Shown piece by piece: positions 11,094-59,683 of a DNA stretch of 64,000 bases. The stretch's first letter is position 1. The number at the start of each line of letters is the position of its first letter. The position numbers were made by a program, and so were the translations under genes. Source of the DNA: Betaproteobacteria bacterium SCN1 (GTDB lineage Bacteria; Pseudomonadota; Gammaproteobacteria; Burkholderiales; Thiobacillaceae); assembly GCA_008923315.1 (NCBI GenBank), contig WBSF01000008.1:310001-374000 (forward strand). The letters run 5' to 3'. The notes beneath the pieces are model-generated. The model was not told the DNA's origin, made no database searches, and saw only the letters and a list, made by a program, of their open reading frames with translations.

Positions 11094-11926
11094 CCACAAT
11101 ATCCATTCTGCGCGCCACCTTTTTCGGATTGGCGCTGCTTGCCATCCAGATTTCCGTAAACACCTCCTTTGCGGATACCCGTCCGGATACCGATCCGGCC
11201 ACCATGCACGTGACCGAAACCGGATCCGTGCGCTTGCCGTCGGATTTCAGGAAAGCTGCCTGGATCGACGTCTACTCTGGGGTTCACCGCCTGCCTGTGG
11301 CTTCGGCCAGGCTCGCAGCCGCGTTGGCATCGCAGGGCTACGAATTTTCCGGCACCGAAGCCGAGAGCGCCGCAACCCTCACGATCAACGGCAGTGTCCG
11401 GCTCTACAACGAAAGCCGTAAGTACGACACGGGCAAACTCTTCCTGGGCGAAATTATCGAGACAGAAGCACACGCCTTCGACGGCATGAGTCGCGGACGG
11501 GCAGGCCGATCCGCTCTTGCTCATGACGCAGGCGTGGCGCAGCAAGGTGGGCGGCTTCTCAGCCATGCAGGCGTACCCGGCGGGGCCCTTGCTGGTGCCG
11601 CGTTCGCCATCCTGACCGACTGGCTTGTCGACCGATCTGGCGTTCGAGAGGCAGTTAACGGAGCTGCAGACACGACAACGCTGGATGCCGCCAAACCGCG
11701 CGCGCCGGCCTTCAGACGCGCATTATGGTTCTGCGGAGAAGACTGCAAGCGGACAACCCATGAAGCCGAGGTCTCGGTCAGCGTCTGGCAAGGAAAGACC
11801 CAGCTCGCGTACTACACTGTCCAGCTCTCGAAAACTCTCCCCGACATCGATGAGGCGAGCGTTCAGCCCATGATCGAGGCCGCGCTCGGCCGTGCGCTCG
11901 AACGAATCCTGGAGGCCTCACGATGA
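11090..11926 (+). CDS. Exported protein of unknown function with a glycine-rich hydrophobic segment
   Basis: 278 residues with a signal peptide (about residues 1-28) and a mature N-terminal domain containing ATLTINGSVRLYNESRKYD. A glycine/alanine-rich hydrophobic run (GVPGGALAGAAFAILTDW) lies near residue 165. The layout, an exported protein with one Gly-rich membrane patch in a tra operon, recalls surface-exclusion proteins such as TraT, but I see no lipobox and no sequence match I can name. It overlaps TraN and the next gene by four bases each. Confidence 0.72.
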   Translation: MTTISILRATFFGLALLAIQISVNTSFADTRPDTDPATMHVTETGSVRLPSDFRKAAWIDVYSGVHRLPVASARLAAALASQGYEFSGTEAESAATLTINGSVRLYNESRKYDTGKLFLGEIIETEAHAFDGMSRGRAGRSALAHDAGVAQQGGRLLSHAGVPGGALAGAAFAILTDWLVDRSGVREAVNGAADTTTLDAAKPRAPAFRRALWFCGEDCKRTTHEAEVSVSVWQGKTQLAYYTVQLSKTLPDIDEASVQPMIEAALGRALERILEASR

Positions 11927-12339
11927 ACCGGAACCGCATTCACAACATGCTCGCATTCTGCATCCTGGCCATGACGACACAAACAGGTATAGCCGCGTCC
12001 AATTCAATTCCCGAGGTCAGCCAGGTGCGCGGTCTGCTGCTCTCAGCGATCGAATCGAAATCCGGCACGGCCGACGCCTGGCTGGTCGGGCCGATGGCCC
12101 AGAAACTACGCGCAGAGACACAGGCACCGGATGGTACGAAGGTTCGGGCCACCGTATCCACCGTCGCGGAGATACGGCCCGGCTGCAAACGGCTGCGGCT
12201 GATCCTGGCCATGCCTTCACACAAGATGCTCACCCGGAACGGCACACACGAGGCTTTCCAGATGGCCTATGAGCTGAATTTATGCCGGGACGGACAACCG
12301 CCGCAGGTTTCATCGGTCGGGCTTGAGAAGACACCATGA
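11923..12339 (+). CDS. Small secreted protein of unknown function
   Basis: 138 residues with a signal peptide ending near GIAAS. The mature chain is about 110 residues, with two cysteines (RPGCKRL and LNLCRDG) that could form a disulfide. The phrase KLRAETQAPDGTKVRATV is polar and beta-rich in appearance. Four-base overlaps on both sides make it part of the same translation-coupled run as the TraN-like genes and traF. No family recognised. Confidence 0.7.
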   Translation: MNRNRIHNMLAFCILAMTTQTGIAASNSIPEVSQVRGLLLSAIESKSGTADAWLVGPMAQKLRAETQAPDGTKVRATVSTVAEIRPGCKRLRLILAMPSHKMLTRNGTHEAFQMAYELNLCRDGQPPQVSSVGLEKTP

Positions 12340-46153: not shown

Positions 46154-48526
46154 TCACACGATGAGCTGTTTCGCCAATGCGACCTCGATGCTGTCCCCGG
46201 ACTGGTTAAGCACGTCCAGACCGGAGTCCGGCATGTCGCCCGACGTCGATTGCGATACCGCGATCTTCTTCGCCATCAACTCCAGACATGCGGTCTGCGC
46301 CGTTCGGGCATAGCCGTAGAAATTCACGTTCACATCCTCCGTCTGCCCGATCCGCCAGGAGCGGCGCGAGGCCTGCTGGAGCGTGTAGACGTTGTAGCCG
46401 GTCTGCATGAAGCCGATGGTCGGAAATTCCAGCATATCCAGGCCGGTCTTGACGAGTTCTGGATTCGTGATGACGACGTCGACCCCGCGATCCACCTGCT
46501 CGAACAGCCAGTCTTCCCGCTTCTCGGCCTTCACGCTGGCCCGCAGCACCGCCACCCGGAATCCTTCAGTGGCGAGTAGACGCTGCATGCGCGCGGTTGT
46601 GTCGCGCGTGCCGGTGTAGGTCGCATAGGTCAGCACCCGTCGGCCCTGTCGTTTCTCACGCCTGCAGCGCTCGATGAGGATCTTCTCCTTTGGGCTCGGC
46701 TCATCGCCCAGAATGGCCGGGACATAGGCCAACTGAGCCCGTGAACGGGGATGGACGACGCGCTCTTCACGGAAACAGCAATCCGGCCAGGCCAGCAAGG
46801 TGTTCAGCACCACGCCGAGCAAGGTCTTGTCGCCTTTGCAAAGCGCTGCTTTCAGTTCAGCCTTCAGCGTGTGCATCAGTTCCTCATACCGGCTGGCCAT
46901 GTCGGCCGTCATTTCCACTTCCTCGTAGAACTCATCGTAGGGCGGCAGAATCCCCTGCCCCAGATCCCTCAGCTTCAGGAATACCGTGATGGGCACCACG
47001 TAGCGCATGATGCCCTTCGGGCCGAACCCTGGGCCCTTGGAAGTATGGTGCGTGATGGATTTACCCCTCGCCGTGCGGTGAGAGGTGGCGCTGCCTTCCT
47101 TGTAGATGTCCTTCAGGATGCCATGCTGACGCATGAACTCCATCGATGCCGTGCCCAGGGTATTGCGATTGTTGTATCCGAAACCGTCCTCGATCATCAT
47201 GGTCGGATTCAGCCGGTGCAACAGATAGAACAAATCGTCGGCATAGCCGCCCATCAGGGTACCGGTCAGCAGCAGAATTTTCTGGCACTTGCGCGCCAGA
47301 ACACCCATCGCCTGTCCCTGGGCCGAACCTTCGTTCTTGTACTCGTGCCCCTCATCGACGATCAAGGTTCCGAAATAGCCCTGTGGCAGATACCGCTTGA
47401 TGAACTCCGTAGGCTGGTACCCGCCTTGCCCGAAGGCAAACTCCATTCTGGCCATGCCGCGCTCCATGCGCTTCGCCTGCCGGTCGCTGAACACCAGTTC
47501 GCCCTCTTCGTTCAGCAGATTGATGAACTCGAAGACGTTGTCCTCCAGCATCCCTGCCAGCATGTCCACACCGAACTGGCTGACCAGCTTCTCTGCAGTC
47601 TTGTCTCCGATTGAGGGGATCTGCTTCAGGTTCTCCAACAGCATGTCGCGCTGATCCCGCCGCTCGCCGGTACGCGACACCAGAGTCCAAAGGCGTTCGC
47701 CGCAGGACCGGCTCGTTTCCTCGACCCTGCCGTCGATCCAGCACGTGCCGCGCACGGTGTTTCCGCAATGCTGACGGTTCTTGTTGAGGTACGCTTCGGC
47801 GAACCTGGCCCGCAGGGGCTTCAGATCGTCGTCAAGAATGACGCCGCCGCACGCCGGGCAGACGGCATAACGCCCGGATTCGCACGCCTCGCCTTCGCCG
47901 AAGCTCATCGAGCGAACGGCAAATGCCGGCAGCCAATTGAAGCCCATCCGCATCCGGACGCGCCCCAGGACGAAGAATTCTGGAACGGACGGCTGTTCCC
48001 GCATGGCGCGGATTTCGAGCAGCTTCTTGAGGGTATCCGGGCCGTTGAGGATCCAGACCCGCGCACCAGGAACCGTTGCCTTGATCTCACGCCGCCACTT
48101 GTAAACCAGGTGCGGGGGAGAAATCACCAATGTGCGTCGATATCCTTCCTCGTGCAGGATGGCGGCCGCTGCAATGGCCATCATGGTCTTGCCTGTGCCC
48201 ATCTCGGCGTTGAGGATGGCAGCAGGCTCGTCCTCGTCGATCAGCAGCCGTGCAATCGCCTGTACGGCCTCGGCCTGCTTATCGAATGGACGCCGATCGA
48301 GCGCGTCCATTACCGCAGCACGCCCCGGATCCGGGACGCCATCGTAGATCGGAGGGTTCTGACGCTGTACAGCCGCCAGCAGCCCGTCACCAAAATCAGC
48401 GATGAACTGGCTCAGCGGGATGACTTCGACTCCCCTGCTTTCAAGCCCCTGCACGACGATATCTCCGGCGAGCTCGCCGCCGGCGTCGATGCAGGCCCCG
48501 GGGGTAGTTGAAATGGTTGTGCTCAC
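46154..48526 (-). CDS. SNF2/superfamily II helicase with a zinc-binding insertion
   Basis: 790 residues from a GTG with AAGGAG seven bases before it. Walker A in NAEMGTGKTMMAIA at about residue 109, motif II DEGHEYKN near 395, motif III LLTGTLMGG near 420, and C-terminal helicase motifs (VLTYATYTGTRD, SRRSWRIGQTEDVNV) near 660-750. Between the lobes is a cysteine-rich insertion (YAVCPACGG ... HCGNTVRGTC ... RSCGERLW). Similar helicases sit in conserved blocks of SPI-7/PFGI-1-like ICEs. Probably aids replication or protection of the element. Its leader carries a Shine-Dalgarno-sequestering repeat. Confidence 0.9.
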   Translation of the reverse strand: MSTTISTTPGACIDAGGELAGDIVVQGLESRGVEVIPLSQFIADFGDGLLAAVQRQNPPIYDGVPDPGRAAVMDALDRRPFDKQAEAVQAIARLLIDEDEPAAILNAEMGTGKTMMAIAAAAILHEEGYRRTLVISPPHLVYKWRREIKATVPGARVWILNGPDTLKKLLEIRAMREQPSVPEFFVLGRVRMRMGFNWLPAFAVRSMSFGEGEACESGRYAVCPACGGVILDDDLKPLRARFAEAYLNKNRQHCGNTVRGTCWIDGRVEETSRSCGERLWTLVSRTGERRDQRDMLLENLKQIPSIGDKTAEKLVSQFGVDMLAGMLEDNVFEFINLLNEEGELVFSDRQAKRMERGMARMEFAFGQGGYQPTEFIKRYLPQGYFGTLIVDEGHEYKNEGSAQGQAMGVLARKCQKILLLTGTLMGGYADDLFYLLHRLNPTMMIEDGFGYNNRNTLGTASMEFMRQHGILKDIYKEGSATSHRTARGKSITHHTSKGPGFGPKGIMRYVVPITVFLKLRDLGQGILPPYDEFYEEVEMTADMASRYEELMHTLKAELKAALCKGDKTLLGVVLNTLLAWPDCCFREERVVHPRSRAQLAYVPAILGDEPSPKEKILIERCRREKRQGRRVLTYATYTGTRDTTARMQRLLATEGFRVAVLRASVKAEKREDWLFEQVDRGVDVVITNPELVKTGLDMLEFPTIGFMQTGYNVYTLQQASRRSWRIGQTEDVNVNFYGYARTAQTACLELMAKKIAVSQSTSGDMPDSGLDVLNQSGDSIEVALAKQLIV

Positions 48527-48700
48527 TATGCGCTCCTTGAAAAATAAGGGGAGCGCACCTCCCCATAGGGAGGCGAACTCCCCTTGGGGTTGACGATGAA
48601 ATTCCAGGCCGGAAGGCCCGCCGTTTTCAGGAACTGAACGGCTTTGGTCGACGCGTTACGCTGCGCCAGGCTGGCCGATACTGTCGGCCAACAGTGAAAC
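48527..48700 (-). promoter_or_regulatory. Leader repeat, long form, upstream of the helicase gene
   Basis: TGCGCTCC (plus 48529-48536, containing the Shine-Dalgarno complement) pairs with GGAGCGCA (48550-48557). The same bases can instead form GGGGAG/CTCCCC (48548-48553/48559-48564), and a further GGGAG/CTCCC hairpin follows. Beyond lie the hairpin GCCGTT..TTCAG/CTGAACGGC (48620-48642) and a pseudoknot: stem GGCCGA/TCGGCC (48673-48678/48684-48689), loop TACTG pairing with CAGTG at 48692-48696. Confidence 0.75.
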
Positions 48701-48747
48701 ACCTTGAAACGCCAGGCTTGCTCTACCTCGCAACGGACTCAACGGGC

Positions 48748-49419
48748 TCAAGCGGTCATTCCCGGCCTGCGCCGATGCTCATGGCGCGCTGACTCTATCC
48801 ACCGTGCTTCCTCGCCCTCGATCCCGACCATTCCCGACTTGACCATCGAAGACAGGTCATCGGCAAAGGAATCAGGCAAAGCGATCCGCACGGCGCTCAC
48901 ACCACCCAAGGGTGGGAAGGAGGTCGCTTCCATGAAGGTCAGGCAGATGGACTCGGTTGCGCGAAGCACAACCTCGCGCCAGCTATCCAGCAGCGGCAAG
49001 GGCGACAGAGCTTTGTAGGCTTCCCAGACGAGTCTCTGGAGCCGATCGCGCGAGGCCTCGCTAAACGGCTCGTCCATGAGTACCCATGCGATACGGCTGG
49101 CCTTGTCAGGCTGTAGCAGCACCGGGTCGTAAACCCAGGCATGCACCAGGTTCCCGAACAGGTTTTCCCGCGGCAACCGGCCCGTGAACTTGGTCAGCCG
49201 GTCGGATTGCCCGATCGAAACCGGATGGACCTGGCCGCTCTGCTCGTCTAACAGCCGGAAGGCATGCAATCCGCCTTCCGACCAGCCGAGCTGGAAAGCC
49301 GCCATCATCTGATGTATCGCTGTGTCCCGACCATAGATCGAAAGAAACATGAGATTGTTCGATTCGTCGCGGATACAGGCATCCGCGTACAGATCGGAGA
49401 GTTCCATGAATTTGAACAT
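48748..49419 (-). CDS. Hypothetical ICE-block protein
   Basis: 223 residues; AGGAG eight bases before the ATG. Soluble and mixed alpha/beta in appearance (SIYGRDTAIHQMMAAFQLGW, FTGRLPRENLFGNLVHAWVYDP). C-terminus basic (HEHRRRPGM). No motif I can name; it has the same sort of leader as its neighbours. It sits just upstream of the helicase gene on the same strand and may share its transcript. Confidence 0.7.
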   Translation of the reverse strand: MFKFMELSDLYADACIRDESNNLMFLSIYGRDTAIHQMMAAFQLGWSEGGLHAFRLLDEQSGQVHPVSIGQSDRLTKFTGRLPRENLFGNLVHAWVYDPVLLQPDKASRIAWVLMDEPFSEASRDRLQRLVWEAYKALSPLPLLDSWREVVLRATESICLTFMEATSFPPLGGVSAVRIALPDSFADDLSSMVKSGMVGIEGEEARWIESARHEHRRRPGMTA

Positions 49420-49484
49420 GCTGATGTGCTCCTAAAAACCGGGAGACCGCAGCCCCTTGGGGACAGCGGCACCCGCAGGGTTGA
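49420..49484 (-). promoter_or_regulatory. Leader repeat, short form, upstream of the 48748 gene
   Basis: In the mRNA: ACCC, GGGTGCCGCTGTCCCC, AAGGGGCTGCGGTCTCCC, then the AGGAGC ribosome site. GTCCCC/GGGGCT and CCGC/GCGG form one hairpin; CTCC can pair with GGAG of the ribosome site, but only four bases, so this copy is weaker than others. Confidence 0.5.
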
Positions 49485-49502
49485 AGATCGCTGTCCGCCG
49501 GC

Positions 49503-50150
49503 CTATTGACCGTCGGCCTGCCGATGGATGGCGCTCACCCAGTCTGGATTGACCGTCGCCGATAGCGAACCGAAGCGGTAGACCGAAGTGATGCCGTTGT
49601 CGGCGCATTGCACGTCGACCAGGTCTGCCGGGCTTGCGGTTTCGGTGTCGAAATCGAGCGCAACAAAATCGAGCGGCTGGCTTGTGCATACCCACTGAAC
49701 GAGGCCGCCTTCGATTCCGATCACTGCCTGGATCGGCGGCCCGCTGCCGCCGTGGCTCTGCATGACACGCCCGGCAAGCTGCATGGCTGTCCTCAAGGCA
49801 CTTTCGCGGGCTGCCGGCTCTCCGAACGTGTCGGCCGCAAGCAGAAGCTCACACACCCGATGGGCGAGCCGATCGTTTTCCAGGGATTTGACGCTGGCGT
49901 CCTTGTCGGGCCATTCGCCCACCTCGCCGACTACCTTGAACTCCAGAACGTCTCCGGCATCACCGTCTTCCTCGTAGTCGTCATACAGCAATGGAACTTC
50001 GGGAGTGTCGTTCCATAGCGTGCAGTCTGAAAACATCGAGTCGGCCTTCTGAATGGCCTCTTCGGGGGTGGCTGAACTGATCCCCACGCGAACCACATGC
50101 GTGTAAGGCAGTTCGTACTCAACGATGAATTTACGGGTTGGTGTGCTCAT
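49503..50150 (-). CDS. Hypothetical ICE-block protein
   Basis: 215 residues with a strong AAGGAG site. Acidic overall. N-terminal part reads KFIVEYELPYTHVVRVGISS and SATPEEAIQKADSMF, a ferredoxin-like or SH3-like strand pattern typical of small phage-like modules; C-terminal part has VDVQCADNGITSVYRFG. No recognised family. It lies between the C5 methyltransferase and the 48748 gene. Confidence 0.7.
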   Translation of the reverse strand: MSTPTRKFIVEYELPYTHVVRVGISSATPEEAIQKADSMFSDCTLWNDTPEVPLLYDDYEEDGDAGDVLEFKVVGEVGEWPDKDASVKSLENDRLAHRVCELLLAADTFGEPAARESALRTAMQLAGRVMQSHGGSGPPIQAVIGIEGGLVQWVCTSQPLDFVALDFDTETASPADLVDVQCADNGITSVYRFGSLSATVNPDWVSAIHRQADGQ

Positions 50151-50400
50151 AGTGCGCTCCTTTCTGAAGTGAGGGAGCGCATCTCGCCCAAGGGGAGATG
50201 TACTCCCCAGGGGGTTGAATTACGATGGAATCCCGGCCCCTTTCGAGGCGTTCCGATTGCAGGGACCGATCGGATGCATTTCCGCTTGCGCCGCGGGAGC
50301 GGGCTGAGACTGCCAGCCAACAGTGAAACCCTGTCGAAGGCTACGTACCTTTCTCGAACCCGCGGCACCGGCGCCGCGGGTTCGAGAAAGGCCCCCCAAG
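50151..50400 (-). promoter_or_regulatory. Leader repeat, long form, upstream of the 49503 gene
   Basis: TGCGCTCC next to the ribosome site pairs with GGAGCGCA upstream, as in the helicase leader. A GGGGAG..CTCCCC hairpin follows. The pseudoknot stem here is GGCTG/CAGCC (50302-50306/50314-50318) with loop ACTG and partner CAGTG at 50321-50325. The far end carries a 19-base-arm palindrome, CCTTTCTCGAACCCGCGGC at 50348-50366 against 50373-50391, which may terminate the upstream methyltransferase transcript. Confidence 0.75.
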
Positions 50401-50413
50401 GGGGCCAGGGTGG

Positions 50414-51826
50414 TCAACCGCATGCAGTTCGCGTCGAACGGATCCATTCATCGAGACCTGCTGCCGTACCGGCGCACCAGACCTTGAGGGCACGGGCAAT
50501 CAGCGCGCCAAGCGCGACGAAAGGCTGGTAAACCACGGACTGCCCCAGCATCTCGTGCGCCACGGTATCCGAGAGGCCAGCCGCCAGGTGCGGCGGGATC
50601 TGCTTCACTCTCGCGTGCTCGGCGGGTGTCAGTTGCCGCAACAGTTCTGGATTCTCCGGATGGCGGATCTTCGGGTCGGTACTTCTGACCTTGGCATAGC
50701 CCTTGGTGATCGTCCCGATACGGTCGCAGGATGCGTCGAAAACCTGCATCCGGAATCCCTTGCCCGCTTCCCGGTCGCGCGCTTCCTTGGCTTTGAGTCC
50801 TGCCATCGTCGACCACCGTGCGTCATCCCACGGGAGCGCCTCAAGCACGTCGCCCAAGGTCGGCCGCGCACCCACCGGCTTCACGATGCCCAGCGGGTCG
50901 AGCTCGATCCCCCGCGTCATCGCCACCAGGCAGTACCGCTCCCGATCCTCGATCGCATTGAAGTCCCGTCCCCGGAGGGCCAGCTCGTGAACGTCATACC
51001 CAAGATCGCGCAGGCTCGTCCGCAGGATCGCGGCGCTCGCGCTGGCCTGATACAGGGGCACGTTCTCCAGGATGACCACCAGCGGGTTGACCTGCGCGAT
51101 CACCGCCAGGAACGGTGCCACCAGATGCCCGACTTCCGGGTGCTCTTCGGGCAGGGCAAGCTTGCGCTTGGCTCGGCCGCTGGCACTCGCGCCGGAACAC
51201 GGCAGCCCAGCTTCGAGGATGCTCACGGCCGGCAGCCTGTCCATTACCCAACGGTCGTAGGCCAACTCCTGCAACGGTGCGGCTAACGCCACGGTCTCGA
51301 TTTCCCATGCATCGTTCGCTTCGCGAGCCTGGTCGAGCAGTTCCGCCCGTATCTCGTTTGCGAACATCAGCCTGGCGTCGACTCCCTCGGCATACAAGCC
51401 AGCGTGGACCGCATGCGAGAGAATGCCTCCACCGTGGGAGATAGACCCCATCGATAGCGGCTCGCCTGCTAGCAGTGCTCTTCTGGCCAGAGCCAGCCGC
51501 CGCCGGCGGCGTGACTCGGAGGCCAGCGGAAGTATGGTGATTCCGCTCCCAAGCATCAGCACACGTACCGAAGGTTGCCCTTCGAACAATCCAAGGACTT
51601 CACGGCTGTTCAGATCGATCACAGGCTGGTCGGACTGCCCACGACGTTTACGGGATACGATGCGGCCGCCCGCCTCGTTCAGCACCAGGCGAATCCGGTC
51701 TTCCTGAAGATGGACATCGAACCGCAGCCCGGGCCGGAACCCCGCGTGAGCGAGATTCGGCCCCTGCAGCCAGATCCTAGGAATACCGCGATTCGAGCCC
51801 ACCGTTAGAACCAGGTAGTGCTTCAT
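50414..51826 (-). CDS. C5-cytosine DNA methyltransferase
   Basis: 470 residues from the ATG at 51826, which overlaps the upstream stop. Motif I SMGSISHGGGILSHAVHAGL, catalytic motif IV LPCSGASASGRAK near residue 210, motif VI VVILENVPLY near 252, and motifs IX-X RQLTPAEHARVKQIPPHLAA and VAHEMLGQSVVYQPF. The catalytic cysteine and ENV are intact, while the SGAS text after Cys differs from the usual FSxxG. An orphan methylase inside the maintenance block probably protects the element against host restriction. Confidence 0.88.
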   Translation of the reverse strand: MKHYLVLTVGSNRGIPRIWLQGPNLAHAGFRPGLRFDVHLQEDRIRLVLNEAGGRIVSRKRRGQSDQPVIDLNSREVLGLFEGQPSVRVLMLGSGITILPLASESRRRRRLALARRALLAGEPLSMGSISHGGGILSHAVHAGLYAEGVDARLMFANEIRAELLDQAREANDAWEIETVALAAPLQELAYDRWVMDRLPAVSILEAGLPCSGASASGRAKRKLALPEEHPEVGHLVAPFLAVIAQVNPLVVILENVPLYQASASAAILRTSLRDLGYDVHELALRGRDFNAIEDRERYCLVAMTRGIELDPLGIVKPVGARPTLGDVLEALPWDDARWSTMAGLKAKEARDREAGKGFRMQVFDASCDRIGTITKGYAKVRSTDPKIRHPENPELLRQLTPAEHARVKQIPPHLAAGLSDTVAHEMLGQSVVYQPFVALGALIARALKVWCAGTAAGLDEWIRSTRTACG

Positions 51827-52341
51827 ACCGATTCCCCGGCCAGCCAACGCGACTGCATACTCTGAACGTGCAGTTCGATGAAATCTTCGACACGGTCATG
51901 GAATCCGTTCCCGTTGAAGACCGAATACAGAATGCCGCCACGCCAGAACATCGGCCAGTAGCCATGTTCCCGATCGATCACGCAGCCCTCCGGACGCGCA
52001 TGCAATGCAGCCCTGCGCAGCGCACCCACACGAAACCCGACTGTGCGAAGCACATGGGCATTCGTACCGTGCCAGGCTTCGATGTAGCATTCGCCATCGG
52101 CCTGTACCCATAAGGCGGTACCGTGGACATGCCGAACAGGCGCCTTGTTCACCCAATCGGGCTCCCAGCCGGCATTGGTCATTTCGATACCGGCGCGGAC
52201 AAGCTCGTGCGCCTTGACCAGTTCCAGTATTTCCTCGCCGCGATGTAGCAGTCTTGCATCGATGATGGTCTCGTAATATTGCGGACAGCGATCCACGACG
52301 TGCTCCGCTTCCGTCTGTAGTACCAGCTTGAATTGATTCAT
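51823..52341 (-). CDS. Hypothetical ICE-block protein
   Basis: 172 residues from the ATG at 52341, with an AAGGAGCG site. Soluble; phrases FKLVLQTEAEHVVDRCPQYY and GREVLE-like helices near the start, then ALWVQADGECYIEAWHGTNA. Overlaps the methyltransferase start, so the two are co-translated. No family recognised. Confidence 0.7.
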   Translation of the reverse strand: MNQFKLVLQTEAEHVVDRCPQYYETIIDARLLHRGEEILELVKAHELVRAGIEMTNAGWEPDWVNKAPVRHVHGTALWVQADGECYIEAWHGTNAHVLRTVGFRVGALRRAALHARPEGCVIDREHGYWPMFWRGGILYSVFNGNGFHDRVEDFIELHVQSMQSRWLAGESV

Positions 52342-52406
52342 GTTGCGCTCCTTGGAATGATGGACGCGCACCGCCCCGAAGGGGGTACGCCCCCTCGGGG
52401 TTGATG
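52342..52406 (-). promoter_or_regulatory. Leader repeat, short form, upstream of the 51823 gene
   Basis: TGCGCTCC (52344-52351) pairs with GGACGCGCA (52362-52370) with one bulged base; then GGGGGTAC..CCCCC-type hairpins and CCCCGA/TCGGGG. The bulge shows the pairing is kept although the arm has changed. Confidence 0.65.
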
Positions 52407-52441
52407 ATGGAAAGCAGCCTCGTGAAAGGCCGCCGGAACAG

Positions 52442-52975
52442 TCAGTAACCCAGACCGTTCTTCAGCTTCAGGCCTTGAATGACCTCGCTCATGGGCCGGG
52501 GATCAAAGTGGAAATCCAACTCCACATGGAAACCCCTGATGGCCACGTCGACCAGCTCGACGATCGGAATACAGCCGTATTCGGCACTCAGCATGTCGCC
52601 GTTGAGGCAGGCATAACCGAAGGCCTGCTCCACCCCACTCCCGTCTTGGTCCTTTTCAGTGATATACCAGTCGCTACCTCCAATGAAATAGTGAAGGTAG
52701 GCAATCGGGTCACGGACGTCCTGCTGCCCATGGGTTGATGGCATGGTGGTAATTCGACCATCCAGCTCGATCATCTTGTCGATGAAGAACTGACCCTCCT
52801 CGCCCAGCATGAGCTGCTCGACTGTGGTCGATTGCGCCACGTGCATGAAGTCCCGGATCCGGCTCAAAGCAGCCTGGCCTTTGGAAAGGCCGGGCCCTGC
52901 ATCGCGGGCCTGGGCGGTGGATGAGTGCGGTACGGCGACGGGCAAGCCGTCGTCAAACAATGAGATATTTCGCAT
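52442..52975 (-). CDS. Hypothetical ICE-block protein
   Basis: 177 residues from the ATG at 52975; GGAGG stands eight bases upstream. Soluble. N-terminal polar tail (VAVPHSSTAQARDAGPGLSK), a helical segment (ALSRIRDFMHVAQSTTVEQL), then a beta-rich region (FHVELDFHFDPRPMSEVIQG). The text ...IPIVELVDVAIRGFHVELDF suggests a stable alpha/beta domain. Not recognised. Between the DUF6094 methylase and the 51823 gene. Confidence 0.68.
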   Translation of the reverse strand: MRNISLFDDGLPVAVPHSSTAQARDAGPGLSKGQAALSRIRDFMHVAQSTTVEQLMLGEEGQFFIDKMIELDGRITTMPSTHGQQDVRDPIAYLHYFIGGSDWYITEKDQDGSGVEQAFGYACLNGDMLSAEYGCIPIVELVDVAIRGFHVELDFHFDPRPMSEVIQGLKLKNGLGY

Positions 52976-53030
52976 GATGGATTCCTCCTTGGAATAAATG
53001 CCGAAGGAATCCCCGCCTGGCGGGGATTCC
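52976..53030 (-). promoter_or_regulatory. Leader repeat with an explicit strand-exchange switch
   Basis: GGATTCC (52979-52985), complementary to the ribosome-site side GGAATCC, pairs with GGAATCC at 53006-53012. That same GGAATCC is also half of a near-perfect hairpin GGAATCCCCG/CGGGGATTCC (53006-53030). The two pairings exclude each other, so the ribosome site is either hidden or free. Sequence unlike the other copies, structure the same. Confidence 0.75.
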
Positions 53031-53060
53031 CGCACGGCGGTGGCTTAAAAATGAAATGGG

Positions 53061-54155
53061 TCAGCGAACTTTCACCACGTCCCCGTAATTGGGGCCGGCG
53101 GTGAAATCAATCGCCGTGATGCTCGGTACGAACTTGTCGGTCAGGGTACGAATTTCGGTAAATTGCCCCTGCCCTCGTTCCTCATAGGTCACGCTTACAT
53201 CCTTGTCCTTGAAGGTATCCCCCTTGATGAGGAGCCTTCTTCCGGATCTCGATTCGACCACACCGGAAATCTGCCCGGCAGCCAGCGCGAGCGCCAGATG
53301 CCAGTCCGAAAGATCCCGAAGCGGTCTGCGAATCACGCCGTCGACGAGACCGAAGTGCCGGCGGAACTGCGGCCACAGGGTATGCCCCCGCAGACGCGCC
53401 AACTCCGCGCTCAACTGCGCACCATCGATCCGCTGCGCGACGAATCTGAACTCCATGTCGCGCGCCTCGGGCACGTAATAGGGCTCTCCACTCCACGATA
53501 CCGGCAGGACTGGCGTGGATTCGCCGTTCCCGCAGGCCTCCAGGCTTGCCTGCGCCTTGGGGTCGCCCCCTTCGGAGTGTCGCCGGATGCCGAATACGAC
53601 ACACTGCTTGAACCGCTCCTCGGGGGCCATGAACACCTGAACCCGCTCGAAATTGCGGGCAATCATCGCCGCGAATTCCTTGCGCAAGGCGTAGTACGGC
53701 ACGATCAGAACCATGACCCCGCCATATTGCAGCCAGGGCAGCGTCTTGCGGAAGAACAGGACTTCCAGACGCTCGCGCTTTGTGTCGCCAGTGGAAGCCT
53801 TGTCGCTCACCAGATTGCCATAGGGCGGATTGAGGAACAACAAGCTTTGCGAACGCCAGGACATGAACACGTCGTTCACGTCGCTGTGGGCGACCTGGCC
53901 AATGATCGTCTTGGCATGCCAGGCGCGTTCGGGATCGAACTCAATCCCAAACGACTCGACCGCCGCGCCGGCCTCCTGCAAATGGTTCACGCATTCGGCC
54001 AGTGCCACACCTTCGCCGCAGCACGGATCCAGAATGCGAATCAGGCTGCCGTCGATATCGAGGCCCTGGAGGAGCCTCCCAAGCGTGACCTCGTCGGTCG
54101 GAAAATACCCATTCTTGATGAAATTGCGGGCAAGACGCTGGAACACGAGAGCCAT
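53061..54155 (-). CDS. DUF6094-type N6 DNA methyltransferase
   Basis: 364 residues from the ATG at 54155, which overlaps the upstream stop (TAATG). Motif I ILDPCCGEGVALAEC at about residue 41 and motif IV LFLNPPYG near residue 107, then KTLPWLQYGGVMVLIVPYYAL. The text RILDPCCGEG and FQRLARNFIKNGYFPTDE matches DUF6094 proteins of ICEs. It probably methylates adenine; a protective rather than restricting role is inferred because no nuclease is adjacent. Confidence 0.88.
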   Translation of the reverse strand: MALVFQRLARNFIKNGYFPTDEVTLGRLLQGLDIDGSLIRILDPCCGEGVALAECVNHLQEAGAAVESFGIEFDPERAWHAKTIIGQVAHSDVNDVFMSWRSQSLLFLNPPYGNLVSDKASTGDTKRERLEVLFFRKTLPWLQYGGVMVLIVPYYALRKEFAAMIARNFERVQVFMAPEERFKQCVVFGIRRHSEGGDPKAQASLEACGNGESTPVLPVSWSGEPYYVPEARDMEFRFVAQRIDGAQLSAELARLRGHTLWPQFRRHFGLVDGVIRRPLRDLSDWHLALALAAGQISGVVESRSGRRLLIKGDTFKDKDVSVTYEERGQGQFTEIRTLTDKFVPSITAIDFTAGPNYGDVVKVR

Positions 54156-54388
54156 TAGGATTCCGCCTTCCGTACTTCGAAAAACCTCATGACCGCGCAA
54201 TTTTGATACTTTGGATCAGTGGCCAACCATTCTCCAGAATCGCTCTGTTGGACATGGCACAGGAATTTTCCCTTTTCGAGAAGCTGGAATCTTGTTGCTC
54301 CAGTCTTCTTTGCCAATTCAATCATTCGAGAAAGTGAATTGGATAGATACTGACATTCATCAAACGGGTCGATCAAACTGAAATTCAT
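54155..54388 (-). CDS. Small hypothetical protein
   Basis: 77 residues from the ATG at 54388; ribosome site GGAGG. Text SLSRMIELAKKTGATRFQLL and ENGKF-like; a small alpha/beta protein. Its stop overlaps the methyltransferase start, suggesting coupled translation, and its leader is of the long repeat type. Confidence 0.6.
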   Translation of the reverse strand: MNFSLIDPFDECQYLSNSLSRMIELAKKTGATRFQLLEKGKFLCHVQQSDSGEWLATDPKYQNCAVMRFFEVRKAES

Positions 54389-54630
54389 GATGCCTCCAGA
54401 AATATCAGGAACGCACCATTCCCTGAGGGGAAAGTACGCCCCAAGGGTTGAAGTGAGTAATGGAATCCCGACCTCTTTCGAGGCATTCCGATTACAGGGA
54501 CTGATCGGACGTTGGTGACGCACTACGCGGCGTCGGGACGAGCTGAAGACTGTCAGCCAGCAGTGACTCTTGGCAAGGCAGAGCCTTTCTCCAGCGCTCC
54601 GAGAGCGTTCGAGAAAAGCCCCCGGAGGGG
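54389..54630 (-). promoter_or_regulatory. Leader repeat, long form, upstream of the 54155 gene
   Basis: Near the start TGCGTTCC faces GGAGGCA with one bulge and one G-U pair. GGGGAAAGT..ACGCCCC-type stems follow. Pseudoknot stem GCTGA/TCAGC (54542-54546/54553-54557), loop AGACTG, partner CAGTG at 54561-54565. Far end: CTTTCTC...GAGAAAAG hairpin. Confidence 0.65.
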
Positions 54631-54640
54631 CAAGGTGACG

Positions 54641-54862
54641 TCAGAAGAGGCGAAGTTGCCCCGCTTCTTCCAGATACCAGCAAGGAATCATGCCGAAATC
54701 GACCTCGATCACTTCCTGGTCGATGACTTCGGTCACGCCGCATTCCGTCACTGCGCTGTCGCAGCAGGCAAGTGCAGCGTTTTCCGCCGAATGCATTGTT
54801 CCGCACCCGTCGCACCGATACGATGGCGGCACCCTGAAGAGATAGCTCAGTCGCATTCCCAT
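54641..54862 (-). CDS. Small zinc-finger-like protein
   Basis: 73 residues; alternative start at 54856. Cysteines in YRCDGCGTMHSAENAALACC make a treble-clef or ribbon-like zinc site; the tail is acidic (VIDQEVIEVDFGMIPCWYLE). Start overlaps the upstream stop. No family recognised. It has no leader repeat of its own, being inside an operon. Confidence 0.6.
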   Translation of the reverse strand: MGMRLSYLFRVPPSYRCDGCGTMHSAENAALACCDSAVTECGVTEVIDQEVIEVDFGMIPCWYLEEAGQLRLF

Positions 54863-55149
54863 GAGAATTTCTCCTCAGGCAGTGCCACGCGCCGTGCAGT
54901 CTCGCCCAGAGCCAGCCATTCGTCGCAGCTGCGCCGCCGGCTCAGATACTCGTCGAACAGTCTGACCGCCAGCCGTGTATTTTCGGTATCGAGCATGCCC
55001 TGCAGCCTGTCCAGACGTAGACATCTTCCCGGGTCCGCGAGGGCCATGAGAAGTTCGCCTAATGCTTGGCTGCCGCCGCAAAATCCAAGAAAGCGAATAG
55101 TCGCCTCGGCTTCATCCAGAAGATCCCTCGGTTTCGCGATCATGGTCAT
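54847..55149 (-). CDS. Small helical protein of unknown function
   Basis: 100 residues from the ATG at 55149, which overlaps the upstream stop (ATGA). Mostly helical (LLDEAEATIRFLGFCGGSQAL, RLDRLQGMLDTENTRLAVRL). Two cysteines. Operon-internal. No family recognised. Confidence 0.6.
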   Translation of the reverse strand: MTMIAKPRDLLDEAEATIRFLGFCGGSQALGELLMALADPGRCLRLDRLQGMLDTENTRLAVRLFDEYLSRRRSCDEWLALGETARRVALPEEKFSWECD

Positions 55150-55730
55150 GATCCCGCTCCAGTCGTTACTGGATGCCATGTCTGCTCTTTGGAGATGAAC
55201 TCATAGCCTAGGCTTTCTTTCAGCAGCCTGATCTGGCGCCGGAACAGGGTACGGTCGCCCAGGGGATCCAGCTTGATGGGCATCGAATTCCTCGCCAGCT
55301 CGGCAAGCTCGATACCCAGCACTTCTATCAGCTCATCCTTCTGAGTGTCCTGCTGCACTTCGTCATTCAGCAGAACGGCCGCGGGAACGATCGCGTTGCT
55401 ATCGGCAGGCTGAACGTGTTGAACGTCCGTCACGATCGGATCAGGTTCGCTCGGAGAGGCCTCCTGCTCGCCTTCGATTGCCTCGCTGAGAGATATGTCA
55501 CTTACCTGCGCGCGAATCTCCGTGGTGGACTTACCACGGCTGACGTAGGACGACATATAGAAACGGTCGACGATGAAGTCGCCCTCGTAGCGCCCTTCCT
55601 CGAACTGGTCGAGGATCGAATCCTTGACCTTGAATTCCCCTTCGGGTGTTAGCAGGTCGCCGACACTGAACTGTCCATTACGGCCGGTAATTACCTTGAT
55701 AACGAGCGTTCCGCTCAATTTGACTGGCAT
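55146..55730 (-). CDS. Hypothetical ICE-block protein
   Basis: 194 residues from the ATG at 55730, with an AAGGAGC site. First half beta-rich (LSGTLVIKVITGRNGQFSVGDL, EFKVKDSILDQFEEGRYEGDF), then VSRGKSTTEIRAQVSDISL and a mainly helical C-terminus. Text resembles DNA-binding or SMI-type accessory proteins but nothing certain. It heads a short operon with the next two minus-strand genes. Confidence 0.68.
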   Translation of the reverse strand: MPVKLSGTLVIKVITGRNGQFSVGDLLTPEGEFKVKDSILDQFEEGRYEGDFIVDRFYMSSYVSRGKSTTEIRAQVSDISLSEAIEGEQEASPSEPDPIVTDVQHVQPADSNAIVPAAVLLNDEVQQDTQKDELIEVLGIELAELARNSMPIKLDPLGDRTLFRRQIRLLKESLGYEFISKEQTWHPVTTGAGS

Positions 55731-55795
55731 GATGTGCTCCTTGAAATTTACGGGGAGCACCTCCCCACAGGGAGTTTGTCTCCCCAGGGGGTGTT
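55731..55795 (-). promoter_or_regulatory. Leader repeat, short form, upstream of the 55146 gene
   Basis: GTGCTCC (55734-55740) pairs with GGAGCAC (55754-55760). Compared with the helicase leader, the arm TGCGCTCC has become GTGCTCC and the ribosome-site side GGAGCGCA has become GGAGCAC: a compensated change. The alternative hairpin GGGGAG-GTG-CTCCCC uses the same bases. Confidence 0.72.
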
Positions 55796-55824
55796 GATGA
55801 ATTTCTATTGTCGGTACGCGAGCT

Positions 55825-56058
55825 TCAAGGCTCCGGCTTCTGGGTCCACGAGCCTTCTTCAAGTGCAACCTGTGCTGCCTGTTGCGTCGGAAAGTATTCC
55901 TCGCTTTCCCGCGACATCGGACCGTCTTCGTCCGAATGAGTCCCGATGTAATACCCGGACTGGGATTTCAGGACACGCAGCGGCAGCTCAACGTTGCACC
56001 AGCGTTTAGCAAGCAAACCGTATTGCATCTGTTCAGAAGTGGAAATTGTGTCAGTCAT
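55825..56058 (-). CDS. Small hypothetical protein
   Basis: 77 residues from the ATG at 56058. Acidic; WCNVELPLRVLKSQSGYYIG and EEYFPTQQAAQVALEEG resemble small DUF-type proteins that occur in tandem in ICE blocks. Leader: long repeat. No family recognised. Confidence 0.6.
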   Translation of the reverse strand: MTDTISTSEQMQYGLLAKRWCNVELPLRVLKSQSGYYIGTHSDEDGPMSRESEEYFPTQQAAQVALEEGSWTQKPEP

Positions 56059-56235
56059 GTCGCTATTCCTTAAAGAGAAAGCGGGCTCGCATCCCCTTCG
56101 GGTATGCCCCGCAAGGGTTGATGTGTCTATTGAATTCCAGACCCGTAAGGGTCCGCCGTTTTCAGGAACTGAACGGCTTTCAAGGGCGATGCATTACGTG
56201 CATCGGTCGGACTGATACTGTCAGTCTACAGTGGA
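56059..56235 (-). promoter_or_regulatory. Leader repeat, long form, upstream of the 55825 gene
   Basis: The ribosome-site pairing is weaker here (CGCT with AGCG). The long part is well conserved: hairpin GCCGTT..CTGAACGGC, hairpin CGATGCA-TTACG-TGCATCG, and the pseudoknot with stem GACTGA/TCAGTC (56210-56215/56221-56226), loop TACTG and partner CAGTG at 56229-56233. It shares long identical runs with the leader at 57424. Confidence 0.7.
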
Positions 56236-56245
56236 ACGCGATGAA

Positions 56246-56752
56246 GTGAGTGGCTTATCCAGGTGGGCCATGGCATCTGGATACCCCACTCGTGGGGCGT
56301 GGAGGGATATGCGTGTTGCGGTAAAGATTCAACCCCTGCAGGTCTTCAACGAATGCGAAGCCGACGCGCCGCTAGAGGGGCCGGGCGCGAATTTCGATTG
56401 CGGTGGAGTCCGCAAAAGCCGTGACTGTTATGGCCGTCACAACCCAGGGGGAGAAATTTCAGCCGAGAAGGCTTGCCCGAGTCTTCTCGGGTAAGCCTTC
56501 TCGGTTGGTGGGCATATGGAAGACGGCATTTCAATCCGTCTCAGGAATGTGGCAAGCGGATGGGGAAGCATCCGTCGCCAATGTAACCCCCGGGTACCTG
56601 GGGAGGTAAAACCCGATCCGGTTCGAGGGGCTACCCGGACTAAAGGCAGTGCTTAGGGCACCAATCCCGCTGTACTCAGCGATCGAGAAACCGAGATCTT
56701 CACCTAAGGCTTGAGCCTTGGGTGAAAACCCCGACGGGGTTTTCTAGGGCTA
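56246..56752. other. Gene-poor segment with a 19-bp stem hairpin
   Basis: No convincing ORF. At 56463-56504 a hairpin has 19-base arms (CCGAGAAGGCTTGCCCGAG, loop TCTT) with one mismatch that is G-U on the plus strand but A-C on the minus strand, which favours a plus-strand RNA. Further GC-rich repeats follow to about 56690. A hairpin CTAAGGC-TTGA-GCCTTGG lies at 56703-56722. It could be an ncRNA, a replication origin or the oriT; nothing decides. Confidence 0.45.
56724..56744. terminator. Bidirectional terminator-like palindrome
   Basis: Stem GAAAACCCC/GGGGTTTTC with loop GAC, flanked by A and T runs on both sides, so it can act on either strand. It follows the 32-residue minus-strand ORF by nine bases. 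Confidence 0.7.
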
Positions 56753-56851
56753 TTACGCCAGTGTCGCCGCGAGCGCCAAGACCTGTGATGTCATCAGACA
56801 CAACATCATCAGCTTGAGATCGAATACGACATTTAATACGGCTTCTTTCAT
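56753..56851 (-). CDS. 32-residue hydrophobic peptide with its own leader
   Basis: ATG at 56851 to TAA at 56753. The peptide runs from MKEAVLNVVFDLKLMM through LCLMTSQVLALAATLA, a single hydrophobic helix. It is preceded by GGAG and by a leader whose arm GTGGACTC pairs with GAGTCCAC at the ribosome site, and followed by a terminator. That complete set of signals makes translation plausible despite its size. Confidence 0.55.
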   Translation of the reverse strand: MKEAVLNVVFDLKLMMLCLMTSQVLALAATLA

Positions 56852-56925
56852 GGTGGACTCCTGGAATTCGATATGAAAACCGGGAGAGTCCACGCTCCAA
56901 CCGGGGGAGGATGGTTCTCCCCGGT
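56852..56925 (-). promoter_or_regulatory. Leader repeat, short form, upstream of the 32-residue ORF
   Basis: GTGGACTC (56853-56860) pairs perfectly with GAGTCCAC (56886-56893), covering the ribosome site. A CCGGGGGAGG...TTCTCCCCGG stem stands upstream. Sequence differs from other copies but the plan is the same. Confidence 0.72.
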
Positions 56926-56946
56926 CGGGTGTGGCAGAACGGAGGC

Positions 56947-57423
56947 TTATTCGCCGCCGGCCGCTGCAGAGGCAGAAGCCTCTTCATCGCTAACAAGGTT
57001 CGGCAACATCACCGGATTCCCGTCAACCCAGGCCTTCGCGATCTTGAGCAAACGCCCTTTGATGTTCACGCCTGTGTCGCCCTTCTTGTGATACTGCGAA
57101 TCGCTCTCGTAGACGAACACTTCCGGATAGATATCACCCAGCTTGAACTGGATCATGACTTTCCGTTTTGCATCGCCATGAGGCTTCAGCATCTCAATTG
57201 CCTTGATCGCCTCTTGACCGTAAACACGGACATCGAAGCGCGTGTAGTCTGGCTTGATAGAGCCATCGCTGATCCACTCGCCGCGCAGTGCGGAAATGGA
57301 ACAAGCAAGAAACTCGTCACCCTTGCGGGGTTTGACGAGCCGGACACGGTTCAGATAGCCAAGGCCAGTGACGTGCAGATCGTAGAACTTGGAAACAGCC
57401 GGGGTGGTGGTCGTATCGGTCAT
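56947..57423 (-). CDS. DUF3577 / STY4534-family ICE protein
   Basis: 158 residues. Text KFYDLHVTGLGYLNRVRLVKP, FLACSISALRGEWISDGSIK, YTRFDVRVYGQEAI and KRKVMIQFKLGDIYPEVFVY is what I know as DUF3577, called STY4534-family ICE replication protein in annotations. An OB-like beta pattern fits ssDNA binding, which is inference. It marks the block as related to SPI-7/PFGI-1-type ICE cores. Leader: long repeat. Confidence 0.9.
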   Translation of the reverse strand: MTDTTTTPAVSKFYDLHVTGLGYLNRVRLVKPRKGDEFLACSISALRGEWISDGSIKPDYTRFDVRVYGQEAIKAIEMLKPHGDAKRKVMIQFKLGDIYPEVFVYESDSQYHKKGDTGVNIKGRLLKIAKAWVDGNPVMLPNLVSDEEASASAAAGGE

Positions 57424-57680
57424 GGTGCTCTCCTAAGAAATAAAAAAGGGAGCACGCGCCCCGGAGGGGAGTCGTAACTCCCCAAAGGGTGGTTGATGAA
57501 CAGCGATGAAATTCCAGACCCGGAAGGGTCCGCCGTTTTCAGGAACTGAACGGCATTCAAGGGCGATGCATTACGTGCATCGGTCGGACTGATACTGTCA
57601 GTCTACAGTGATACTCTTCAAGGCTGGAGCCTTTCTCCAACACGCATGCAGCGCGTTCGAGAAAGCCCCCAGAGGAGCTT
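57424..57680 (-). promoter_or_regulatory. Leader repeat, long form, upstream of the DUF3577 gene
   Basis: GTGCTC (57425-57430) pairs with GAGCAC (57450-57455). GGGGAGT..ACTCCCC hairpin next. Long part near-identical to the 56059 copy: CGATGCA/TGCATCG hairpin and pseudoknot stem GACTGA/TCAGTC (57587-57592/57598-57603) with loop TACTG and CAGTG at 57606-57610. Far end CTTTCTC...GAGAAAG hairpin. Confidence 0.75.
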
Positions 57681-57697
57681 TCAATTTCTCATCGTCA

Positions 57698-57811
57698 TTA
57701 CCGATTTGACGATCTATGCTTCCGATCCGCCCATTTCACATACAAGAAAAGGCCTAAACCGATTGCATAAGAAAGCCCCATCAGTACCCATGCTGGATCA
57801 AGTTTATTCAC
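57698..57811 (-). CDS. 37-residue single-helix membrane peptide
   Basis: GTG at 57811 with GGAGAG just before it, overlapping the upstream gene's stop; TAA at 57698. Text NKLDPAWVLMGLSYAIGLGL, then FLYVKWADRKH, a helix with a basic tail. Translational coupling to the preceding membrane protein supports it. Confidence 0.5.
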   Translation of the reverse strand: MNKLDPAWVLMGLSYAIGLGLFLYVKWADRKHRSSNR

Positions 57812-57989
57812 TTTGCTCTCCGTTCAGAATCATGAGACCGTAGGCCACAAGGTTCACGAAAATCAACGCCGACCCAATCATAAAGAGCAGGTTGCGCTCT
57901 ATGAGTCCAGTGTAGCCGATCAGTCCAAATTGAGCGATGGCTACAATCTTGACGATTTCAGCAATGTACTTTCTTTGCTCTGAATTCAA
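57804..57989 (-). CDS. Small membrane protein
   Basis: 61 residues if started at the TTG at 57989, eight bases after GGAGG; longer upstream frames run into the leader and are rejected. Two helices (IVKIVAIAQFGLIGYTGLI and LLFMIGSALIFVNLVAYGL). Overlaps the next small peptide. No family recognised. Confidence 0.55.
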   Translation of the reverse strand: MNSEQRKYIAEIVKIVAIAQFGLIGYTGLIERNLLFMIGSALIFVNLVAYGLMILNGEQSE

Positions 57990-58190
57990 ATTGAAGACCT
58001 CCACAAGAAAAAGCGGAGACCTGTTCCCGGTGCGGGTGAGAATCACCCGCTGGGTTGAGAAATGCTGCAATGAAATCCCGAGTTATTCAACTCGCCGTTT
58101 TCAGGGACTGAACGGCATTTAAAAGGCGTCTTTCGACAAAGGCCAGCACCTTACGGGTGCAAGACGGGCTGCGTGAGCCAACAAACTGCT
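57990..58190 (-). promoter_or_regulatory. Leader repeat, partly degenerate long form
   Basis: TCTCC faces GGAGG of the ribosome site. Strong stem GCGGGTGA/TCACCCGC. The hairpin GCCGTT..CTGAACGGC is kept with one change, but the pseudoknot loop and its partner are lost (GGCT/AGCC stem remains). Confidence 0.55.
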
Positions 58191-58240
58191 TCCAAGCATA
58201 TGAAAATATGGACGGCTGTCAAGCCGTGTTGCTAGAGGCG

Positions 58241-58366
58241 TTAGCTCGGGGGGTATTTTGGCCGCTGGCGACGCACACCAAAGCGTGGTAATTCAATTGG
58301 ATGAATAACAGCCACACACAGAAGCACAAATAAACATAGCAAAAATACGGATTTCAGTATCAACAT
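58241..58366 (-). CDS. 41-residue membrane peptide
   Basis: ATG at 58366 overlapping the upstream stop (TGATG); TAA at 58241. Hydrophobic N-terminus (LILKSVFLLCLFVLLCVAVI) followed by a basic, proline-containing tail (PRFGVRRQRPKYPPS). The stop-start overlap supports translation. Confidence 0.5.
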   Translation of the reverse strand: MLILKSVFLLCLFVLLCVAVIHPIELPRFGVRRQRPKYPPS

Positions 58367-58665
58367 CAGTCATCCAGCTTCATGCATCCGATGAGCTGCC
58401 CGCGCTTACGCAAATACTCAACGTCCCTGGCTAGATCGGCTTCGACAAGCTCGCGCACATGAACCCATTCTTCTACGATCTCAATTCGTTCCGCAGATAG
58501 TGCGCCTGGAATTTCAATAGGCATCTGTTCGCGCCGCTCGATCAGGATGCAACGCATCCAGCCATCGTGTCCCTGCACCTCCACCAGACCAAATTCCGAA
58601 TGCATAGCCATCGCACCGGCTCGGCATTTGTATTCGGCCAAGTTAACTACTCCACTCAATTTCAT
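58366..58665 (-). CDS. Small hypothetical protein
   Basis: 99 residues. Text HSEFGLVEVQGHDGWMRCILI resembles a small beta-barrel, then helices (IEIVEEWVHVRELVEADLARD). Ends with CMKLDD. Next to the S49 peptidase, same strand, without the leader repeat. No family recognised. Confidence 0.6.
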   Translation of the reverse strand: MKLSGVVNLAEYKCRAGAMAMHSEFGLVEVQGHDGWMRCILIERREQMPIEIPGALSAERIEIVEEWVHVRELVEADLARDVEYLRKRGQLIGCMKLDD

Positions 58666-58729
58666 CTCCTAGTTATCCACATTTTCTGTGGATGACGCTG
58701 TTATTGAACATGCGCAAAGCCCTATTCAG

Positions 58730-59683
58730 CTAGGCGCTACGGCTGACGCCCAATATCTGACCAATACGCGAAAGCATATCGAACAGCGATGCCATGCCGT
58801 TCAACCATCCTGTGCCAGGCGCGCGTGGGCCCATGTCATGCACCTTCGAGTCCCACTGCATGGCGACCGTATCCAGCGTACCAATCTCATCCACCAGACC
58901 AATCTTCATGGCCTCCGCTCCGTCCCAGACCTCCCCGGTGGTGTAATCGATGCCCTGTATGAGTTTCTTGCCGCGGGCAGCCGCAACCTCTTCCTTGAAA
59001 CGCTGGCCCATTTTCATCACCATTTCCTGGGCCTTGCGGTCCGCCTCGGGCGTCATAGGTGCAAAGGGATTCAGCATGGATTTCAGGTTGCCCGAGGCAT
59101 ACACTCGCTGGCGCACGTCCAGCTTCTCCAGCGCCTTGTGGAAATCCCACCCTGCGATGACCGCGCCGACCGAGCCCACCAGCGAGTAGTTCGCCGCATA
59201 GATCTTATCGGTGTGAAGCGCAACCATGTAAGCTGCCGACGCCCCGATGTTGTTGATGACGGCGACGACAGGCTTGGGATTCTTCGCCTTGAACACCTTG
59301 ATGGCCTGATAGATTCGCTCCGACTCGACTGGCGCACCGCCTGGGCTGTCGATGCTGAGTACGATCGCTTTCACATTGTCGGCCTCGAACGCAGTCTTGA
59401 GCAGGGGTACGACCTTGTCCGCCGACGCCGTTGCGCTGGCGGAGATTTCTCCGTCAATATGGATTACCGCTGTCGTTTCGCTGTTTGGCAGTCTCGCCCA
59501 GCCCAACTGCTTCGCAACAGCAAACACGTAGAGCACGAAGAACAGGAGTGCCGCGCTGACCAGCATTGTCCGTTTGGCGAGCTTCCATCTTCTCTCCGAC
59601 CGGCGCTCCTGCAGCACGTCGCGGAGAAGATCGTCCGTAACCAACTTGTGAATGTCGGACTCAGTCATTTTCAGTTCTTTCAT
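58730..59683 (-). CDS. S49-family (SppA-like) membrane peptidase
   Basis: 317 residues from the ATG at 59683; 59668 is also possible. One membrane helix near residues 40-60, then the peptidase domain: VLSIDSPGGAPVESERIYQA, IGASAAYMVALH with the candidate nucleophile near residue 149, and SGNLKSMLNPF with the lysine near 201. The spacing of 52 residues matches Ser/Lys dyads of short SppA. ICEs carrying such peptidases are known; substrate unknown. Confidence 0.9.
   Translation of the reverse strand: MKELKMTESDIHKLVTDDLLRDVLQERRSERRWKLAKRTMLVSAALLFFVLYVFAVAKQLGWARLPNSETTAVIHIDGEISASATASADKVVPLLKTAFEADNVKAIVLSIDSPGGAPVESERIYQAIKVFKAKNPKPVVAVINNIGASAAYMVALHTDKIYAANYSLVGSVGAVIAGWDFHKALEKLDVRQRVYASGNLKSMLNPFAPMTPEADRKAQEMVMKMGQRFKEEVAAARGKKLIQGIDYTTGEVWDGAEAMKIGLVDEIGTLDTVAMQWDSKVHDMGPRAPGTGWLNGMASLFDMLSRIGQILGVSRSA

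Follow-up and report, generated by a model that had tools for sequence, protein, structure and literature searches.

We propose that a recurrent 5′ leader, found before eleven genes of a 64,000-nucleotide stretch of Betaproteobacteria bacterium SCN1 (contig WBSF01000008.1, positions 310,001 to 374,000; the window), is probably a cis-acting RNA expression platform that governs the start of translation for many genes of the conserved block of MOBH/MPF_G-type ICEs and of related plasmids. By this means the element probably switches many unrelated genes on or off at the level of translation. Each copy is a ladder of blocks in the order C1 (CAACCC), G1, loop, C2, G2, C3, a U-rich stretch and G3, the last being the Shine-Dalgarno (SD) site. 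Comparative tests on 61–120 non-redundant leaders support two mutually exclusive folds. State A would combine a hairpin of C1:G2 and G1:C2 with a C3:G3 helix that hides the SD; in state B, G1 and the apical loop would pair with C3, with C2:G2 nested inside and the SD free. Comparison shows both states to be under selection.

When all eleven minus-strand leaders of the window were read out, C and G blocks were found to alternate from a CAACCC-like sequence to the start codon, with the SD as the final G block, as a preliminary description of this DNA had reported (Table 1). Ten are clear; the leader of 49419 is degenerate and fits the ladder poorly. The SD, often CAAGGAG, faces an arm that changes with it, and the compensated arm/SD pairs listed in that description are present: TGCGCTCC/GGAGCGCA in leaders 48526 and 50150, GTGCTCC/GGAGCAC in 55730, GGATTCC/GGAATCC in 52975, and GTGGACTC/GAGTCCAC in 56851. 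The SD arm of leader 57423 carries an insertion. Among the window leaders alone, a leader's own C3:G3 partner pairs better than a swapped one (z=-3.6, p=3e-4), and the mean C3:G3 energy is -13.9 kcal/mol in the eleven leaders, whereas twelve further genes on the minus strand of the window average -8.1. The ladder is absent, again as first described, from all six window genes whose start overlaps an upstream stop. The leaders, all on the minus strand, lie in an ICE block that includes an SNF2-type helicase (46157-48526), two methyltransferase genes, DUF3275, DUF3577, topB and ssb. Very long near-perfect intergenic hairpins at 50346-50393 and 56459-56510 were the source of spurious Rfam microRNA matches.

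Plain MAFFT alignment put the ladder blocks out of register, so the blocks were normalised and the sequences padded with N before covariance model R1 was built from them. R1 detects nine of the eleven window leaders at E<0.05, several of them seeds of R1 itself; the other two are the weak leader of 56058 and the degenerate one.

Table 1. Ladder leaders and upstream modules of the window, with matches to covariance model R1
Feature	Position	Strand	R1 match or basis
Ladder leader of SNF2-type helicase gene (start 48526)	48527..48597	-	56 bits, R1 seed
Upstream pseudoknot module	48592..48707	-	
Degenerate ladder leader (start 49419)	49420..49490	-	read from sequence; no R1 match
Ladder leader (start 50150)	50151..50222	-	E 2.9e-8
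Upstream pseudoknot module	50221..50339	-	
Ladder leader (start 52341)	52342..52405	-	E 9e-5
Ladder leader (start 52975)	52976..53044	-	E 3e-5
Ladder leader (start 54388)	54389..54453	-	E 0.04
Upstream pseudoknot module	54456..54574	-	
Ladder leader of DUF3275 gene (start 55730)	55731..55801	-	E 1.5e-7
Weak ladder leader (start 56058)	56059..56122	-	E 0.9
Upstream pseudoknot module	56125..56242	-	
Ladder leader of short ORF (start 56851)	56852..56932	-	E 2e-4
Ladder leader of DUF3577 (STY4534-family) gene (start 57423)	57424..57496	-	E 6e-7
Upstream pseudoknot module	57502..57619	-	
Ladder leader (start 57989, TTG)	57990..58060	-	E 7e-7
Upstream pseudoknot module, 5′ part divergent	58066..58181	-	

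The evidence for two folds comes from a swap test, in which the pairing of a leader's own blocks is set against that obtained when the blocks are taken from different leaders; it ignores phylogeny and is not a phylogenetic test such as R-scape. Close leader pairs were too few to count compensated changes on short branches. Every helix of states A and B covaries beyond partner swaps: C3:G3 gave z=-13.7 (fixed windows, 61 leaders), G1:C2 z=-16.9, G1:C3 z=-14.9, C1:G2 z=7.6 and C2:G2 z=3.9, with the C2:G3 control at z=0.5, rising somewhat to z=4.4 in a larger set of 120 leaders. The apical loop, which state A leaves single-stranded, covaries with the C3 of its own leader (z=7.5, 120 leaders); the same test found no covariation of the loop with its own G3 or C2. 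G1 and the apical loop taken together with C3 gave z=7.5-9.8. Statistics for state A are inflated in some sets because the R1 seeds, and the sets themselves, were chosen for state A pairing. The loop:C3 test is unaffected by that selection, as is an independent set of 30 leaders chosen by radC RNA and not by R1, in which C3:G3 gave z=-7.3. The preliminary description had envisaged a register-shifting switch in which each C block pairs with the G block on either side. Two registers do emerge, but the alternative partner of C3 is G1 with the apical loop and not the neighbouring G2, for which pairing is unsupported (z=-0.3); the idea was right and the wiring different.

In nearest-neighbour energies, the SD-paired fold of the full-length RNA is favoured in 95% of leaders, by a median of 6.2 kcal/mol, and in RNA ending before the SD, folds with C3 paired upstream are favoured by a median of 4.1 kcal/mol. 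These energies suggest state A as the resting state; with upstream-paired C3 favoured before the SD exists, a transient open state during transcription may be possible. The prevalence of C3:G3 in full-RNA folding would also suit fixed SD-sequestering hairpins that impose low translation or coupling to the upstream gene and have no regulated second state. About 40% of ladders begin 5-30 nt after an upstream stop codon, without room for an upstream module, as coupling might predict. We nevertheless consider this explanation unlikely, as a fixed hairpin has no need of the covariation of G1 and the apical loop with C3, the majority of leaders are farther from any upstream stop, and many are preceded by a radC RNA or a pseudoknot module.

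A second explanation, which we judge to be about equally improbable, makes the leader mainly a transcription attenuator, with the state B hairpin and the U-rich stretch as an intrinsic terminator and state A as the antiterminator. The first bases after C3 are T at about 0.5-0.7 versus A at 0.06-0.2, at least five of the eight bases after C3 are T in 60/107 leaders, and some window leaders were called terminator-like. About half of the clear cases carry terminator-type U-rich sequence after C3, so state B could also terminate transcription, and in some copies such termination at the U-run may play a part. As a main function, however, attenuation leaves the tracking of the SD arm by C3 across leaders unexplained; a T-run of five or more occurs in only 34/107 leaders and is missing from several in the window (50150, 52341, 54388, 55730), and 62% of shuffled sequences likewise form a long hairpin before the SD. 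Counting truncated folds was too loose for the same reason, and the loop:C3 swap test was used instead.

We favour translational control. State A would be OFF, with C3:G3 hiding the SD, and state B, in which the SD is freed behind a U-rich single strand, would be ON, an assignment we infer from that exposure. The balance between them may be shifted by the upstream modules (radC RNA in sister ICEs, the pseudoknot in the window) or by a factor that acts on C1, which is poor in G. This conserved segment, with consensus UCAACCC, precedes the first hairpin and would be freed in state B, so that a factor bound there could act as an activator. In leaders that carry no module, this role could fall to an upstream ribosome or to the order in which the RNA folds as it is transcribed. 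CsrA- or ProQ-type RNA chaperones would be conceivable operators of the leaders: the frequent SD CAAGGAG resembles GGA sites, and ProQ sites resemble the state B hairpin with its U tail. This genome, rated 100% complete, yielded neither PF02599 nor PF04352, however; a CsrA or ProQ regulon is disfavoured in this host, and we rank it as the least probable of the explanations considered.

The leader is shared well beyond the window, and in related elements from many proteobacteria it likewise stands before most genes of the block. It is kept before the helicase gene in nearly all of eighty homologous ICEs, which were collected via the helicase. R1 matched 281 times across 54 of these loci; about 265 matches share the strand of the genes, and 16 are on the opposite one. 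For 142 of the 150 best R1 matches an ATG ORF lies within a few bases, nearly always 1-6 nt after the arm, compared with 28% for random positions. The genes downstream represent at least 23 families, and another 35 are singletons. At least seven ladders occur in pKLC102, and for most of them an independently annotated start follows 1-4 nt after the end. The earlier proposal that one leader type serves many genes of one ICE block is thus supported, and the same leader is present in homologous ICEs and in pKLC102. Ladders run in one direction on a single strand, close to ssb, topB and methyltransferase genes, an arrangement that would also fit a role as single-stranded DNA during transfer, as a promoter or origin-like fold of the kind suggested for STAXI. 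We find this very improbable: the ladder is anchored within a few bases of the SD and start codon, and the arm that varies does so in step with the SD, which is a property of RNA. Ladder positions also bear on annotation. In pKLC102 a strong plus-strand ladder (locus L085, 5771-5830) faces a CDS annotated on the minus strand (5749-5928), which points to a small gene that is either unannotated or given the wrong orientation. In locus L086 a ladder at 11890-11948 ends near 11948 and the helicase is annotated from 12007, so its start codon has probably been annotated too late.

Within the 3.09 Mb genome, all 22 R1 matches with E<=1 fall on three contigs, C6, C7 (the window) and C8. Those on C6 group near additional DUF3577 genes, and radC RNAs accompany the matches on both C6 and C8. 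Nine radC RNAs (loci L097-L105) were recorded on C6 and C8, with more DUF3577 genes on C6; the genome apparently holds at least two further ICEs of the same family. In a class-wide sample, R1 matched in 8 of 12 genomes with DUF3577 versus 7 of 217 without it. One of these seven (G077) shares contig coordinates with an already collected ICE locus (L020); of the other six, three show ICE genes and one has an ssb-like gene nearby. In two of the seven, the matches are leaders of genes reading like radC.

Structured modules lie directly upstream of many ladders. A conserved pseudoknot, also found in Thiobacillus-type ICEs and without an Rfam match, precedes six window leaders. The two sides of the pseudoknot change together (UCCC/GGGA or UUCC/GGAA), and its alignment (A5) has 80 cells changed on both sides versus 32 in shuffles. 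In sister ICEs of the same genome the corresponding place relative to the ladder is taken by radC RNA (RF01754), a cis-regulatory candidate of proteobacteria reported in 2010 with its function unexplained (Weinberg et al. 2010, PMC2864571). All nine radC RNAs of these sister ICEs are directly followed or overlapped by a ladder, and the three in pKLC102 lie directly upstream of, or run into, one. Among 52 copies examined by eye, about two thirds adjoin a ladder and about a third do not; an SD and ORF start lie 30-150 nt downstream in 35 of the 52. A ladder-less class of Pseudomonas radC RNAs is followed by a different conserved sequence (L130, L132-L135, L137-L140, L143-L146). The 149-position radC model covers the upstream structure and overlaps the ladder at its 3′ end only. 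The window itself has no radC RNA match above 40 bits and none below threshold at E<=10 in 47500-59000; the pseudoknot module resembles radC RNA in its position in the 5′ leaders of mobile-element genes. The ladder appears to be a common expression platform that takes its input from interchangeable upstream modules or works with none. Whether this extends to modular RNA control of ICEs, with a generic two-state translational platform before most block genes steered by interchangeable 5′ sensor modules (radC RNA, pseudoknot or none), is in our view evenly balanced.

An Rfam search of the window and 22 other loci returned no match to the ladder; only radC RNA matched, and only outside the window. 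The first account of these leaders knew of no described family like them. The lack of an Rfam match in the window agrees with this, but a described RNA, radC, lies directly upstream of the ladder in sister ICEs. STAXI (RF01728), which that account had named for the Rfam search, resembles the ladder in its repeated occurrence in mobile elements, where it accompanies ssb, topoisomerase and antirestriction genes (PMC2864571); it consists, however, of repeated pseudoknots of Enterobacteriales, and the same search found no tandem pseudoknot repeats matching the STAXI model. In the literature we found no described family for the ladder, with a mention in the supplement of PMC2864571 possible. The ICEclc papers searched for leader, hairpin or attenuation make no mention of RNA leaders in this family.

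Mechanistically, two groups of RNA offer precedents. The expression platforms of translational riboswitches use anti-SD and anti-anti-SD elements to form two exclusive folds, with the SD hidden in one of them, and by covariation the ladder has this arrangement. Unlike riboswitches, the ladder copies share no known ligand and no conserved aptamer common to all, many have no upstream module, and one element uses the ladder on many genes; the upstream modules are themselves candidate ligand-binding aptamers. In hok-type mRNAs one fold is favoured early in transcription and another in the longer RNA (metastable and inert forms). The order of folds in the ladder would be alike, but the genes differ and the ladder has no known antisense RNA.

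Leader-guided placement of some start codons and small genes corrects annotation, and the copies collected here offer many natural variants of one two-state RNA. For the orphan radC RNA, the ladder provides a downstream partner whose output can be tested. A translational switch common to most block genes would add a layer of control to a very widespread family that includes pKLC102, and, if the modular reading is true, the element gains a post-transcriptional regulon.
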